Shown: piece after piece, positions 32,336 to 38,969 of the stretch
Layout of the letters: each line of letters begins with the position of its first letter
How positions within the stretch are numbered: position 1 is the stretch's first letter
NCBI GenBank assembly: GCA_945875545.1
Contig: CAMCKZ010000022.1
Coordinates: 1-40,079 of the forward strand
From: Polyangium aurulentum
GTDB taxonomy: Bacteria; Myxococcota_A; Polyangia; Polyangiales; Polyangiaceae
DNA length: 40,079 nucleotides
Direction: 5' to 3'
Made by a program: the position numbers and the translations under genes
The notes under the pieces: model-generated
The model's database searches: none
What the model saw: the letters and a program-made list of their open reading frames with translations, nothing else
What the model was told of the DNA's origin: nothing

Positions 32336-33306
32336 CGCTTGGCACCGAGCGAGTAAGGCTTCGCGGGTGGCACCCAGCGCATGCGCCTAAGGCGCTGAAC
32401 GAGGTCGTCGAGGCTCACGGCCGCCGGTGACTCGGTGAGTTTCAACGCGAAGGCCACGAGCGACACAACCTCGCGCGGCGCCACGCCAAGACCGCGAAAG
32501 TGGCGCACCGTCAGGGTGTCGCCGTTGCGTTTGGCAAGGCGCTGCCCATTGGCGCCGAGCGCCAGGGGCAGGTGCAAATACCTGGGCGTGGGCAGGCCAA
32601 GGAGGCGCTGCACGTGAACTTGGCGCGGGGTTGACGCCAGCAAGTCGTCGCCGCGCACCACCAAGTTGATGTTCATCGTGGCGTCGTCGATGGCGGTGGC
32701 AAATTGGTACGAATAAACGCCGTCGGCGCGGCGCAGAACGAAGTCGCCGAACTGCTTGACGATGTCTTGGGTGACCCCGCCGCGAAGCACATCACGCACC
32801 TCCACGGGCGCGACCCCCGTGAGATCGAGGCGCAACGACGACAGGCGCTTGGCGTCGCGGATCTCGTGGCGACGCCTGCAAGTACCTGGGTAGACCGTCT
32901 CTTCGCCCGGGTGCGGGGCCACGGCGGCGCGGGCGATTTCGGCGCGCGAACAATCGCACGGATAGATGCGACCAACTCGTCGCAATTCGTCGAGGCAGCG
33001 GGCGTAAAGCTCCGCGCGCTTGCTCTGAAAGGGCGAACCGAGCTCCACGGATTCCACCGGCCCGGGGCCCTCTTCCCAATCGAGACCGAGCCACCGAAGG
33101 TCTTCGAGGATGCGATCGACGCAGCCGGGCACCGCGCGGGTCACGTCCAAGTCGTCGATCCGGACGACGAACTTTCCGCCGGTCATGCGGGCAAAAAGCC
33201 ACGATATGAGCGCGACGCTCACGCCGCCCAGGTGCAAGTCACCGGAAGGCGTGGGTGCGAAACGTGTTCGCAACGGTTGCTCAAAGAGCTCGACGGGAAG
33301 CGACAT
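32332..33306 (-). CDS. gluQ: Glutamyl-Q tRNA(Asp) synthetase
   Basis: A truncated paralogue of GluRS lacking the anticodon domain; it attaches Glu to the queuosine base of tRNA-Asp. The 324-residue length fits GluQRS (about 290-320), not GluRS (about 480). Motifs: HIGH-type RFAPTPSGDLHLGG, zinc-binding YPCDCSRAEI with a later YPGTCRR (CxC...Y...C), IDDLDVTR, and KMSKS-equivalent RLAKRNGD. It is the last gene of the arginine operon; its ATG shares one base with the argF stop (TAATG), so translation is likely coupled. No functional link to arginine synthesis is obvious. The stop overlaps the convergent CLC gene by 4 bases. Confidence 0.94.
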   Translation of the reverse strand: MSLPVELFEQPLRTRFAPTPSGDLHLGGVSVALISWLFARMTGGKFVVRIDDLDVTRAVPGCVDRILEDLRWLGLDWEEGPGPVESVELGSPFQSKRAELYARCLDELRRVGRIYPCDCSRAEIARAAVAPHPGEETVYPGTCRRRHEIRDAKRLSSLRLDLTGVAPVEVRDVLRGGVTQDIVKQFGDFVLRRADGVYSYQFATAIDDATMNINLVVRGDDLLASTPRQVHVQRLLGLPTPRYLHLPLALGANGQRLAKRNGDTLTVRHFRGLGVAPREVVSLVAFALKLTESPAAVSLDDLVQRLRRMRWVPPAKPYSLGAKR

Positions 33307-34223
33307 TAGGCCAGGAGGAAAGTGAGGAGCGCCTTCTGGCTGTGCAGGCGATTTTCAGCCTGGTCGAAGATACGCGACTTCGGCCCTTCCATGACCGCAC
33401 TCTCTATCTCTTCGCCTCGATGGGCCGGCAAACAATGCAGCACGACCGCGTCGCTTTCGGCGTGTTCCAGCAGCTCTCCCGTGACGGTGTAGCCTGCAAA
33501 CGCCTGGAGCCGCCGCGCTGTCTCGTCTTCTTGACCCATGCTCGTCCACACGTCGGTGTTCACAATGCGCGAGCCCGTCATGGCCTCCCGCGGATTGCGT
33601 GTAAGCTGCACGTGGTTCCCGGCTTCAATCACTTCATGGGCCGGGGGATCGAAGCCCTCGGGTGTGGCCAGCGCCAGCGTAAAACCAAGGATTCGTGCCG
33701 CCTCGATCCACGAGCGGGCCATGTTGCTGGAGCCGTCGCCGATGAACGCGCATCGAAGCTTGCTCCAGTCCAAGAGCTCGCCGCGGGCCCGAAACACCTC
33801 TTCGACGGTCATCAGATCCGCGAGCAGTTGCACCGGATGCGCGTCGTCGGTGAGGGCATTGATGACGGGCACCTTCGCGATGCACATCTCCTCGAAACGC
33901 GCGGTCGTGGTGGTGCGAAAAACGATGGCCTGGCAGTAACCCGCCAAGACCCGCGCCGTGTCGCGCACGGGCTCGCCGCGCCCCATCTGGGAGCCCTGGG
34001 TGGTGACCACGACGGGAATGCCTCCCAGCTCCGCGACGCCAACCTCGAAACTAATGCGCGTCCGAGTGGACGCTTTTTCCATCACGATCGCGACGGCCTT
34101 GCCGTGAAGCGCCGCTCGGCCTCGGGCGCGGTCGGCCTTGAGGGCGTGAGCCTCGGCCAAAATGCTTTTGAGTTCGTCGACGGTCAGGCTCGAAAGCCTC
34201 GCAAAATCGCGCTTCGCAGTCAT
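33306..34223 (-). CDS. argF: Ornithine carbamoyltransferase
   Basis: Makes citrulline from ornithine and carbamoyl phosphate in the cytoplasm. The 305-residue length is typical. Carbamoyl-phosphate site S52-T53-R54-T55-R56 (EKASTRTRISFE), H129-P130-V-Q132 (DDAHPVQLLADL), and the ornithine-side H263-C264-L265-P266 (VLHCLPAHRGEEI) are all present, as is the DGxxNMARSW segment. Its ATG overlaps the argH stop as ATGA and its stop overlaps the gluQ start, placing it in the minus-strand arg operon. I found no AT-rich ARG box near it, but the operon promoter is further upstream. Confidence 0.97.
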   Translation of the reverse strand: MTAKRDFARLSSLTVDELKSILAEAHALKADRARGRAALHGKAVAIVMEKASTRTRISFEVGVAELGGIPVVVTTQGSQMGRGEPVRDTARVLAGYCQAIVFRTTTTARFEEMCIAKVPVINALTDDAHPVQLLADLMTVEEVFRARGELLDWSKLRCAFIGDGSSNMARSWIEAARILGFTLALATPEGFDPPAHEVIEAGNHVQLTRNPREAMTGSRIVNTDVWTSMGQEDETARRLQAFAGYTVTGELLEHAESDAVVLHCLPAHRGEEIESAVMEGPKSRIFDQAENRLHSQKALLTFLLA

Positions 34224-35680
34224 CGCATCTCCAGGGGAACGTGGGCCAAATGAGCAAGTAGGGCATCGAGGCGAGGAACCAGCTGCGCCCGATCGTGAAG
34301 CCTTCCGGCGAGGAGTTGAAGCTCGTCGAGAGACCGGAGCACCGCCTTCGGCCCCGTGCCGCCGTAACTCTCCTTTGCCAAAATAGCCCGGCGAGGGTCA
34401 AGAACGTTCATGCAGTCTGCATCAAGTTCCGGGTGCACGTCGCGAACGTCGTCGAGGCTGAGGGCCGACAGGTGCACGCCTTGAGATGTGGCGCGGCGCA
34501 CAAGTTCGCCGGAGGCTTTGTAAGCTTCGCGAAAGGGCACTCCCTTGCGCACGAGAGCCTCGGCCAAGTCCGTCGATTGGGTGAATCCGTCGGCCAGCGC
34601 GGCCTCTCCGCGGTCCCCGCGGAAGTGCACATGATCGAGGCACAGATCGACCGCCCGCATGCACGCGGCAAGGGTGGGCCCCGTGGAAAGCACCGGCACG
34701 CGGTCCTCCTGTTGGTCGCGGTTGTAGCCCGAGGGCAAGCCCTTCACGAGCGTCAACAGGTGCACGACATTCGCAATTCCCGTCGCGGTCTTGCCGCGAA
34801 GCAGTTCGAAAATATCGGGATTCTTTTTTTGAGGCATCATCGACGACCCGGTGGATACCGCCGGATCAAGGGTCACGAGGGCGTATTCTGCCGAGGCGTA
34901 ATCCACGAGATCCGACGAGAGCTTGCCGAGCGCGAGAAGAACGCGTGCCCCGGCCCACGCCCAGTCCAACGCGAAATCGCGGTCGCCCGTCGTGTCGAGG
35001 GCGTTGCGCGTGGGGCCGTCAAACGCGAGGATCGACGCCACCAAGTGGCGGTCTGTGGGCAACGACGTGCCGCTGCACGCGCCACTTCCGAGGGGGCAAA
35101 GGCGCGTGCGATCCAGCACGAACGCGAGGGTCTCGCCGGCGCGAAGGAGTGCGCTTGCCCAGCTCGCCACCAGGAATGCCGCACTGATGGGCTGCGCCCG
35201 TTGCCGATGGGTGAAGGCAGGAATCGGGAGGGCCACGAGGGGCCGCGCCATGGCGATCAAACGCCGAGCCAAGTCCGCCAGTTCTTCGAGCCGCCGCGCC
35301 GCCTGATCACGCACGTGAAGCGTCAGATCGAGCGCGACTTGGTCGTTGCGACTGCGTGCAGTATGCAAGCGACCCGCGACGGCCCCGAGCCGCCGCCCGA
35401 GTTCCGCCTCGACGGCCATGTGGATGTCCTCTTCGCCCACCGGAAGCGCCAAACGAGACGCCTCCGCATCGTGAAATAGTGCGACCAACTGGTCGCGAAG
35501 TTCTTGCGCATCGGCCACGGGGATGAGACCGGTACGCGCAAGCATGGTCACGTGGGCGGCGCTTCCGAGCAGATCTTCGCGCGCGAAGGAGAGATCGTGG
35601 CCGTACGAGGACGACCACTGAACGAGTTCCGGGAGCATGCCGTCGAGGCCCGTGGCACCGGTTCTTGCGATGGTAGACAT
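34220..35680 (-). CDS. argH: Argininosuccinate lyase
   Basis: Cleaves argininosuccinate to arginine and fumarate, the last biosynthetic step. The 486-residue protein has the fumarase-superfamily signature with catalytic Ser279/Ser280 (TGSSMMPQKKNPD), plus TARSRNDQVALDL, HRQRAQPISAAF and GDRDFALDWAWAGA. The N-terminus (MSTIARTGATGLDGMLPELV) is shorter than usual lyases that begin with W-GGRF, but the core is complete. argG is not in the window. It is preceded by a 119-bp gap holding a GC-rich hairpin, and its stop overlaps argF by 4 bases. Confidence 0.96.
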   Translation of the reverse strand: MSTIARTGATGLDGMLPELVQWSSSYGHDLSFAREDLLGSAAHVTMLARTGLIPVADAQELRDQLVALFHDAEASRLALPVGEEDIHMAVEAELGRRLGAVAGRLHTARSRNDQVALDLTLHVRDQAARRLEELADLARRLIAMARPLVALPIPAFTHRQRAQPISAAFLVASWASALLRAGETLAFVLDRTRLCPLGSGACSGTSLPTDRHLVASILAFDGPTRNALDTTGDRDFALDWAWAGARVLLALGKLSSDLVDYASAEYALVTLDPAVSTGSSMMPQKKNPDIFELLRGKTATGIANVVHLLTLVKGLPSGYNRDQQEDRVPVLSTGPTLAACMRAVDLCLDHVHFRGDRGEAALADGFTQSTDLAEALVRKGVPFREAYKASGELVRRATSQGVHLSALSLDDVRDVHPELDADCMNVLDPRRAILAKESYGGTGPKAVLRSLDELQLLAGRLHDRAQLVPRLDALLAHLAHVPLEMR

Positions 35681-35790: not shown

Positions 35791-35810
35791 CGGCGGCGTC
35801 TATGCCGCCG
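35791..35810 (-). promoter_or_regulatory. GC-rich 7-bp hairpin at the argJ-fusion stop
   Basis: CGGCGGC (35791-35797) pairs with GCCGCCG (35804-35810) around a 6-base loop that overlaps the stop codon of the ArgJ fusion. There is no T-run, so it is not an intrinsic terminator. It could stabilise the 3' end of the upstream message or tune argH expression. Confidence 0.4.
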
Positions 35811-37920
35811 AAAAGGGCGGTAATGTTGGGAAACCGCGAGGCTGAATGAGGGTACCCACGCCGCGATCCGTGAAGAGTTCGGCGATGAGCGTGTGGGGCA
35901 GGCGGCCGTCGATGATGTGCACCGCATGCACGCCGTGGCGAAGAGCGGCGAGGGCTGCGTGGACCACCCGCAAGAGCGCGGGGTGGATGCCTCCGGAGCG
36001 GAGGCGATCGGCCAGGGTGTCGTCGTGCAACGAAACGATGAGCTCGCCGTCGAAGGTAAGGCCCGGCGCGTCGACGAGGATGATGAGCTTGTCGGCGCGA
36101 ACGGCGGCGGCCACATGGGCCCCGAGCTCCGCGGGGTCGACAAGATGTTGCGACCCGTCGTCTGCAACACCGACGGGCGATACGACGGGCACGTAGCCCT
36201 TGCCGAGAAGCACCTCCAGCGCGCCTGCGCGAACCGCGTGAACCGTGTTCCCATCGGCACGCTCTTCGGCCGTGACGAAAGCGCGCACCACGCCGCCCTC
36301 CCGCCCGCAGATACCGATGGCGTGTGCGTGGTGCTGATTGAGTGCGGCGACAAACGCTGGGCCCGTTTGCGCCTCAAGAAGCGTGTCCACGGCATCGCGC
36401 GGACCGCCTGCGGCCTGTTCCCCGTGGGCATCCTGGGCGTCCAACGCGCGCTCTGCGCCCGGACTCTCAAAAATCGCATGCACAGCCGGGGGATAGCCGT
36501 GAACCACGAGAGGCAATACGCCTGCACTCTGCAGCAAACTGACATCGCTTGCGAGGGTGGCCGCCAGGGCAGGGCGGGAGAGCGCGGAGCCTACCCAGGC
36601 AATCACGACGCGGCGATTGGCGAACTTCGCAATGTAGGAAAGGGCCTCCACGAGAATCGCGCGCTTCAGCGCCGGGCTGTAATTGCCGATGCGGTCGTCG
36701 CGGGTGATGGTGCCGTCGCTCGAAGCCTGCGTGAAAGAGGCGTAGTCCCCGTTGATCTTCACGTAGTCGTAACTGAGGTCGCAGCCCCACGCGCGGCCCG
36801 AGCCGGCGTCGCCGCCGAGCGCGATTTCAACGAGCACCAGAGGGTCGCGCATGCGCTTGCGCAGACTCGGCGAATCGAAGGCCACGGCGACCCCGTACGC
36901 AAACACCTGAATGCCTGCAATCTGCACGCAAATGGCCTGAAGCTCGACGGGGAGATTGTCGCGACCAATGCGCGCGCCGAGGGCGGCGACGACGCGCCCC
37001 CAGTTTGGGTCCGAGCCAAATAGCGCGGCTTTTACCAGGTTGTCGCCTGCCACAGCCCGCGCGAGATTTCGTGCGATGTCGTCGCTGGCAGCCCCGCGCA
37101 CGGTGACGTCGAGGCGCCGCGTGGCACCCTCTCCGTCTTCGGCGAGCTCGCCGCAAAGCTCTTGGGCCATGCCCTCAAGGATCGACTCCAACTGAAGTTC
37201 TTCGGGGCTCCCGCTGGCGATGGCGGCGTGCCCAGCGAGCCCACTGGCGAGAAGAAGTATCGCGTCGTTGGTGCTTTGAGAGCCGTCGAGATCGAGCTGC
37301 TCGAAGGTTCTTGCGCACACGCGCCCGAGGACCGCATCGAGCACAGCGGGGGGGACGTGCGCGTCGGTCGTGAAGACGACCAAGACGGTGGCCAAAGATG
37401 GTGCGACCATTCCGCTACCTTTTGCGATAGCTGCAAACTGCACGGATCGCCCGCCGATGGTTGCCTCGCGCAGGGCGAGCTTTACCCGCGTGTCGGTGGT
37501 CAGAATGGCCTCCGCGGCCGCTGCGAGATGGGGGCTCCGTGATTCGACCAATTCGCGCGATGCGGCGAGCAATTTATCGACGGGCCAACGCACCCCGATG
37601 ACGCCCGTCGCGGCACAAACGACGGCCTCGTGAGGCACGCGAAGCTCGTCGGCCACGCGTGCGCACACGGCGCGGCAGTCTTCAATGCCCTCGGCCCCGG
37701 TCAACGCGTTTGCGTTCCCGCTCGTGATCACCAAGGCGCGAAAGGCCGACGATGGAAACCGCGCGCGCGCATCGAGCACAGGGGCGGCGGCAGCGGCGTT
37801 TCGTGTAAATCGCGCGGCAGCCGAGCAGGGCACTTCTGCCGCGATGAGGGCGAAGTCTTTCCGTGACGCCTTGATGCCCGCGTGAATGCCCGAGAAGAGG
37901 AAGCCCCGGGGCGCCTTCAT
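35800..37920 (-). CDS. argJ: ArgJ fused to a degenerate ArgB (acetylglutamate kinase-like) domain
   Basis: A 706-residue fusion. Residues 1-415 are ArgJ (ornithine/glutamate acetyltransferase): KGSGMVAPSLAT with self-cleavage and catalytic Thr178 (Ala-Thr bond), FEQLDLDGSQSTNDA, GSDPNWGRV, and the C-terminal SYDYVKINGDYAS. Residues about 425-706 are an amino-acid-kinase domain that looks like ArgB but lacks its catalytic residues: VVIKxGG is VVIAWVGS (Ala441), HGGG is HGYP (474-477), NxNAD is LVDPA (593-597), and the GGMxxK lysine is missing (GGIHPALLR). It keeps the N-terminal helix (ALKRAILVEALSYIAKF) and VHIIDGRLPHTLIAELFTDR followed by GVGTLI. I infer an inactive, possibly arginine-sensing domain. 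Start ATG 37920 overlaps the argC stop. The ArgJ call is firm. Confidence 0.92.
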   Translation of the reverse strand: MKAPRGFLFSGIHAGIKASRKDFALIAAEVPCSAAARFTRNAAAAAPVLDARARFPSSAFRALVITSGNANALTGAEGIEDCRAVCARVADELRVPHEAVVCAATGVIGVRWPVDKLLAASRELVESRSPHLAAAAEAILTTDTRVKLALREATIGGRSVQFAAIAKGSGMVAPSLATVLVVFTTDAHVPPAVLDAVLGRVCARTFEQLDLDGSQSTNDAILLLASGLAGHAAIASGSPEELQLESILEGMAQELCGELAEDGEGATRRLDVTVRGAASDDIARNLARAVAGDNLVKAALFGSDPNWGRVVAALGARIGRDNLPVELQAICVQIAGIQVFAYGVAVAFDSPSLRKRMRDPLVLVEIALGGDAGSGRAWGCDLSYDYVKINGDYASFTQASSDGTITRDDRIGNYSPALKRAILVEALSYIAKFANRRVVIAWVGSALSRPALAATLASDVSLLQSAGVLPLVVHGYPPAVHAIFESPGAERALDAQDAHGEQAAGGPRDAVDTLLEAQTGPAFVAALNQHHAHAIGICGREGGVVRAFVTAEERADGNTVHAVRAGALEVLLGKGYVPVVSPVGVADDGSQHLVDPAELGAHVAAAVRADKLIILVDAPGLTFDGELIVSLHDDTLADRLRSGGIHPALLRVVHAALAALRHGVHAVHIIDGRLPHTLIAELFTDRGVGTLIQPRGFPTLPPFSAA

Positions 37921-38969
37921 GGGGCAAAGCGCATCAGTGTATCGAGACCCGCAGTCTCAGCAAATCCGCAGGCAAGGTTCATGTTTTGCACGGCTTGGCC
38001 CGCGGCACCTTTGACGAGGTTGTCGATGGCACCGATCGTGACGACTGCCTCGGCATTCGCCTCGACGCCCACGTAGGCAAGATTGGTGCCCGCGACGGCC
38101 TTGATCGTGACGTGAGCCGCGTCGACGACGCGCACGAAGGGCTTGTTCTTGTACGCCTCGCGAAGAACAGCGACCAGTTCGTCGCGTTTTACGCCGGCCT
38201 TGGGACGCAAGTAGGACGTCGTCAACAGGCCGCGCCGCAACGGCAAAAGGTGAGGCACGAAGGTGACCGCCGAGCGCCCCGCGTGGCGCGCGAGGCCGAG
38301 GGCAATCTCGGGGCTGTGTTGGTGCGTGAGGACCTTGTACGCGCGCAAATCGCCCGCCACCTCACAGAAGGCGAAGTCGTCTTTGGCCTGGCGGCCCGCA
38401 CCACTTGTGCCGCTCTTGGCATCAACGATCACGTGACCCGGCTCCACGAGCCCCGAAGCGAGCAGGGGCGCTGTGCTCAAGAGTGCCGCGGTGGCGTAGC
38501 ACCCGGGATTTGCGATGATGCGGGAGCTCGGAGGTGGCGCGCCAAACAGCTCCGGCAGACCGTAGTGCGCGGCCGTGAGAAGGTCTGGGCGCGGGTGATG
38601 GAAACCGTAATACGCGACGTAGTCGTCTTGTGTTTCAAGACGAAACGCGCCGGAGAGATCCACGATGCGGGCCGTCGATGACTGCAAAATGCGCGGCGCA
38701 AGATCCACGGACACGGCGGCGCTTGTGGCGAGGAACACCAGGTCAACGTCTGCGCTGCGCGCAAGGGCGGCGGCGTTTTCGATGAAGGTGAGACCCAAAA
38801 GGCCCCGCGCGAGGGGCTGGAGGGCGTCTGCCACCGCTTCGCCTCGACGCTTATCGGAGGTGCAGAAAGCCACGTCAACGCCGGGATGCGAGGCAAGAAC
38901 CGCCGTCAGGACGCTCCCCGAATACCCGGACGCGCCGACCACACCCACGCGAAGTTTGGGAGAAGCCAC
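37917..38969 (-). CDS. argC: N-acetyl-gamma-glutamyl-phosphate reductase
   Basis: Reduces N-acetylglutamyl phosphate to the semialdehyde with NADPH. The 350-residue protein has the Rossmann start VGVVGASGYSGSVL, active-site Cys157 in ANPGCYATAAL, KSGTSGAGRQAK and the C-terminal GAIDNLVKGAAGQAVQNMN. The start is a GTG at 38969. It overlaps the ArgJ fusion by 4 bases (ATGA) and follows the small membrane ORF by 12 bp. Its substrate is made by acetylglutamate kinase; since the fused kinase-like domain looks inactive, a functional argB should exist elsewhere in the genome. Confidence 0.97.
   Translation of the reverse strand: MASPKLRVGVVGASGYSGSVLTAVLASHPGVDVAFCTSDKRRGEAVADALQPLARGLLGLTFIENAAALARSADVDLVFLATSAAVSVDLAPRILQSSTARIVDLSGAFRLETQDDYVAYYGFHHPRPDLLTAAHYGLPELFGAPPPSSRIIANPGCYATAALLSTAPLLASGLVEPGHVIVDAKSGTSGAGRQAKDDFAFCEVAGDLRAYKVLTHQHSPEIALGLARHAGRSAVTFVPHLLPLRRGLLTTSYLRPKAGVKRDELVAVLREAYKNKPFVRVVDAAHVTIKAVAGTNLAYVGVEANAEAVVTIGAIDNLVKGAAGQAVQNMNLACGFAETAGLDTLMRFAP

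Follow-up and report, generated by a model that had tools for sequence, protein, structure and literature searches.

In the cyclic pathway of arginine synthesis, feedback is usually described as acting by arginine on ArgB and by ornithine on ArgJ (PMC3827942). The arginine site, known from mutants and structures, is formed by aromatic residues of an N-terminal helix (N-helix), a lysine of the central beta-sheet, a glutamate and a loop of the pattern E-(L/I)-(F/M)-(T/S)-x-x-G-x-G-T (PMC2566978, PMC4490483; for the lysine, PMC4490483). In NAGS, arginine is bound by the AAK domain, the shape of the ring changes, and the linker passes this change to the acetyltransferase domain (PMC4490483). One example is ArgA (the classical, bacteria-like NAGS, with N. 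gonorrhoeae structures 2R8V and 3D2P), in which arginine binds to an ArgB-like domain that has no kinase function, and this domain controls the covalently attached enzyme of glutamate acetylation. Kinase residues were also lost in vertebrate-like NAGS/K proteins, later on and where a separate NAGK exists, and the Azospirillum NAGS has lost R66, N158 and K217 (PMC4490483). ArgJ (ornithine acetyltransferase; 1VZ6, 3IT4, 1VRA) normally stands alone, and our search of the open-access literature found no description of an ArgJ-ArgB fusion.

Such a fusion is encoded in the window analysed here (a stretch of 40,079 nucleotides from a 3.5 Mb draft genome, 97.5% complete), by an open reading frame of 706 codons on the minus strand (35800..37920), as are all features given below. 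The locus has the order argC-argJB-argH-argF, with argC (37917..38969; TIGR01850, 358 bits), the only one found in this genome, lying upstream and overlapping the fusion gene by four bases, followed after the fusion by argH (34220..35680; TIGR00838, 404 bits) and argF (33306..34223; TIGR00658, 314 bits). Elsewhere in the genome there are a second, stand-alone argJ (C30, L045) and an intact stand-alone argB (C81, L003; 257 bits), the latter with both the N-helix and the arginine motif, so that phosphorylation does not depend on the fused kinase; this excludes the fusion as the sole kinase of the genome. For argG, no match was found in this genome (TIGR00032, PF00764) or in G001 (PF00764), and a congeneric genome (G002) has one; the absence is probably a gap in the drafts.

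The first part of the protein (residues 1-395; 36736..37920) is predicted to be an ArgJ acetyltransferase domain with complete motifs, scoring above the curated cut-offs (PF01960, 400 bits over residues 9-395; NF003802, 406 bits) and matching the solved structures 1VZ6, 1VRA and 3IT4. Thr178 (37387..37389), the autocleavage nucleophile, aligns with the N-terminal residue of the beta chain in 1VRA, 3IT4 and 2VZK (chain B in each) and is invariant in 33 fusions, and the ArgB-like part would therefore ride on the beta chain after self-cleavage. The two parts are joined by a linker of 20 residues (396-415; 36676..36735), aligned in all fusions, which is of low confidence and the main uncertain stretch in the predicted model (built from the alignment of 33 fusions; mean pLDDT 83). 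A domain search found only PF01960 and PF00696 in the protein.

The second part (residues 416-697; 35830..36675) is, by profile and structure matches, an ArgB-like domain of the hexameric NAGK type, whose best solved relatives are the T. maritima NAGK with arginine (2BTY), the P. aeruginosa enzyme (2BUF) and a cyanobacterial NAGK. It scores 90-93 bits against TIGR00761 (curated cut-off 151), is collinear with 2BTY without rearrangement (E 6e-41), and in the model keeps an intact fold (Z 31.3 and rmsd 3.0 over 270 residues against 2BTY). The active site, in turn, is almost entirely gone: in the alignment, the catalytic lysine (E. coli K8) is replaced by A441 (36598..36600), HGGG by HGYP (H474-G475-Y476-P477; 36490..36501), NxNAD by LVDPA (593-597; 36130..36144) and GGMxxK, with E. 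coli K217, by PALLRV (647-652; 35965..35982), and the NAG-binding Arg66 (E. coli numbering) has been lost as well. Of the eight positions scored (K8, G11, G44, G45, R66, N158, D162 and K217 in E. coli numbering), seven are replaced. That the catalytic residues moved elsewhere in the domain is excluded by the collinear alignment with 2BTY and 2BUF, and a sequencing or assembly error by the in-frame decay seen in three congeneric genomes and in other lineages.

The putative arginine site, by comparison, is complete in this domain (Y429, F433, K611, E681, G687 and G689). The N-helix (residues 416-433, 36622..36675; modelled as helix over 416-431) keeps EALSYIAKF (425-433) with the invariant aromatics Y429 and F433. 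K611 (36088..36090), the counterpart of the central-sheet lysine of the arginine site (K196 in T. maritima, K201 in the N. gonorrhoeae NAGS), is retained in all decayed fusions, and the segment HIIDGRLPHTLIAELFTDRGVGT (668-690; 35851..35919), which includes E681, G687 and G689, carries the published motif (PMC4490483, PMC2566978). The preliminary description of this DNA, which had reported a full ArgJ domain with Thr178 intact, four replaced catalytic elements and a conserved N-helix and C-terminal segment, is thus borne out residue by residue, Arg66 being the one loss absent from its list, and the alignment to arginine-sensitive NAGK structures and the fold prediction that it had proposed returned a collinear domain (2BTY, 2BUF) with the NAGK fold.

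Searching relatives, together with a single scan across 84,980 species genomes that would miss fusions with unlike linkers, yielded 54 fused ArgB domains after deduplication, of which 53 were usable. The remaining one (L090) was left out of the count, as its ArgB part looks frameshifted, which would be an assembly error or a recent pseudogene. As far as names and kinship show, all 53 belong to Myxococcota, several to Polyangiaceae and a cultured Polyangium among them, and the gene usually sits in an argC-argJB(-argH-argF) cluster (argC precedes in most loci, argH-argF follow in many). The most shortened fusions, L091 and L092, lie outside the argC-argH-argF cluster, next to unrelated genes, for an L,D-transpeptidase, a zinc dehydrogenase and a CheA-like protein. 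All eight catalytic positions are kept in 34 of the 53 domains, including that of the cultured Polyangium fumosum DSM 14668, and no other argB was found in the Polyangium genome or in two genomes of good completeness (G015 and G032), all three with an intact fusion. Given these intact active sites and the missing second argB, the fusion almost certainly began as a bifunctional ArgJ-ArgB, which arose within Myxococcota. Two side observations concern other ArgB forms: the fusions L105-L107 have a different linker and an arginine in place of the arginine-site lysine, with the catalytic residues intact, and a second kind of stand-alone ArgB, without N-helix and arginine motif, occurs in many Polyangiales (L121-L131), where in several loci the frame upstream resembles the end of argC.

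From this starting point the active site has decayed to different degrees, with at least two catalytic residues lost in 18 of the 53 fusions and at least four in nine. On a tree of the ArgJ domain, the fewest changes are nine for the loss of at least two residues and four for the loss of at least three. The most decayed lineages (the window genus, L091/L092 and G043/L067) form one group on this tree with moderate support (90/69), so that the first loss may be common to them and the independent losses are fewer than the decayed sequences. The details of loss nevertheless differ among the three, the catalytic lysine having become alanine or cysteine, and in L091/L092, G043, L075 and L078 much of the segment corresponding to about T. 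maritima 66-106 (with the NAG-binding arginine and the substrate-binding hairpin) is deleted while the arginine site stays. A single-sequence AlphaFold model of the L091 pseudokinase was unusable (pLDDT 48). Another argB is present in the genome for 17 of the 18 fusions with at least two losses, against 17 of the other 35 (Fisher p 0.0008, uncorrected for kinship because phylogenetically independent pairs numbered only five and had no power). The exception is L066 (G064), which has lost R66 and N158 in a possibly incomplete assembly where no other argB was found. Ratios of dN/dS (Nei-Gojobori; rough values, as dS is high) are 0.06-0.10 in intact fusions; in the window genus they are 0.30, 0.20 and 0.13 for the ArgB part and 0.15, 0.11 and 0.13 for ArgJ, and in the kinase core they rise to 0.14-0.38 there and to 0.68 in G043/L067. 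All remain below 1, and independent assemblies have neither stop nor frameshift in the domain; judged by these ratios, the decayed ArgB domain is under purifying selection, relaxed in its core.

What the decay has spared is the arginine site. All 53 usable domains, decayed ones included, have the five arginine-site positions of the initial scoring, and in the nine most decayed domains the literature-defined positions (seven each) are kept in 63 of 63 cases, against 17 of 72 for the catalytic ones (eight each). Over five decayed groups, retention of conserved columns is 1.00 for the arginine site, N-helix and C-terminal segment (a set chosen after inspection), 0.65 for other conserved columns and 0.37 for catalytic ones; for the seven literature-defined columns alone, full retention has a chance of 0.002 among all conserved columns and of 0.011 among the non-catalytic ones. 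These columns are not demanded by fold or catalysis, as seen in the type-B ArgBs, whose aligned sequences have the catalytic residues and are without the N-helix and the loop; most have Ala, Gly or Ser at the position of K611, which is thus not kept for catalysis or fold either. We regard the retention of columns that type-B ArgBs lack as the strongest evidence that the decayed domains may still bind arginine.

Survival of the arginine site alongside decay of the active site, in several lineages, is the pattern expected of a sensor, and we consider it reasonably likely (a probability of about 0.6) that the ArgJ beta chain carries a dead hexameric-type kinase domain that still binds arginine. 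The ancestral ArgJ-ArgB would have catalysed two steps of the arginine pathway; several lineages would then have lost the kinase active site and kept the arginine site. With NAGS as the working model (arginine bound by the AAK domain, the ring reshaped, the linker relaying the change to the attached enzyme), the pseudokinase would bind arginine, form a hexamer and act on ArgJ, where binding, hexamer, coupling and sign are all predictions. Two genomes, G073 and G030, yielded no ArgJ besides the fusion, and their second argB is of type B (by sequence in G030, by score in G073), which leaves the fused domain with the only recognisable arginine site found among their ArgB and ArgJ proteins. Against a sensor speaks the second, stand-alone ArgJ of the window genome, since regulation confined to the fused copy would be leaky. 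On the points by which the preliminary description had proposed to judge its arginine-sensing pseudokinase, we found no relocated catalytic residues, another intact argB and, in the tabulation of fusions, the arginine site kept in all 53; on these grounds it is partly supported, and what it had missed is the bifunctional ancestry and the second ArgJ.

Part of the conservation could serve assembly, because in hexameric NAGK the N-helix and the last segment also make the contact between dimers, the inter-dimer junction (PMC3329491, PMC10464499). The dead domain might then be a scaffold that joins, through its N-helix, either the active stand-alone ArgB or itself, so that ArgJ is placed beside ArgB or arginine control is relayed to ArgB subunits in a mixed ring. 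A NAGS-NAGK metabolon is known in yeast (PMC3329491), and the genomes of the window genus, G043 and L075/L091/L092 have a stand-alone ArgB above the cut-off, of the N-helix type where read; a mixed ring is possible in the window genus, whose stand-alone ArgB is arginine-type. We nevertheless hold a scaffold to be rather unlikely. K611 belongs to the central sheet (PMC4490483) and lies outside the junction, and G030 (with G073, by score) has only a type-B argB and no N-helix partner that we could find, yet still keeps the site. Additionally, the segment deleted in L091, G043 and L078 overlaps what we take to be the kinase dimer helix, and its loss would weaken a standard ring.

The raised dN/dS of the kinase core and the concentration of catalytic losses where another argB exists would also suit a redundant kinase domain in decay, persisting by chance or as a C-terminal folding need of ArgJ. 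The absence of stops and frameshifts in independent assemblies, the ratios below 1 and the full arginine site of the most decayed domains make such a relic improbable, and a stand-alone ArgJ (L045) manages without any such domain. Still harder to sustain, and in our judgement very improbable, is an acetylglutamate kinase that works through other residues: the model shows a preserved fold, and activity can be presumed for most relatives whose residues are intact, but a collinear alignment has substitutions at seven of the eight catalytic positions, the score falls under the argB cut-off, an intact argB lies elsewhere in the genome, and in other relatives the substrate-binding segment is deleted.

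The arginine-sensing reading would, if true, add arginine control to ArgJ, a route for glutamate acetylation independent of ArgA. Whether myxobacteria several times made an arginine-gated ArgJ out of a bifunctional ArgJ-ArgB, independently of ArgA, is in our estimate an even bet. The conversion of an enzyme into a sensor is usually reconstructed from its end points, as for ArgA; here intact bifunctional, partly decayed and fully dead stages with the arginine site untouched coexist, some in cultured relatives, so that the order of steps, and whether regulation preceded or followed catalytic loss, are now directly testable.

Compared with the described systems, the fusion shares with arginine-sensitive hexameric NAGK (ArgB; 2BTY, 2BUF) the fold, the N-helix and the arginine-site residues, and differs from it in the absent catalytic residues and the attached ArgJ, itself the same complete domain as in stand-alone ArgJ, with the autocleavage threonine and motifs. 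Vertebrate-like NAGS and the bifunctional NAGS/K of Xanthomonas and Maricaulis resemble it in the bifunctional ancestor and the retained arginine site (PMC4490483), but they are tetrameric and their partner is a GNAT domain, not ArgJ. With ArgA it has in common the lysine, the glutamate and the E-(L/I)-(F/M)-(T/S)-x-x-G-x-G-T loop, known in the fusion from sequence. In ArgA, however, the partner is a GNAT acetyltransferase that follows the AAK domain, whereas no GNAT domain was found in the fusion, where the partner is the unrelated Ntn-type ArgJ, which precedes the kinase domain, and where the pseudokinase has an origin of its own, in an active ArgB that was already fused. The dead kinase is probably an arginine gauge for ArgJ, parallel to that of ArgA/NAGS: an arginine-sensing ArgB-like pseudokinase is already known, and what would be new is ArgJ as its partner.
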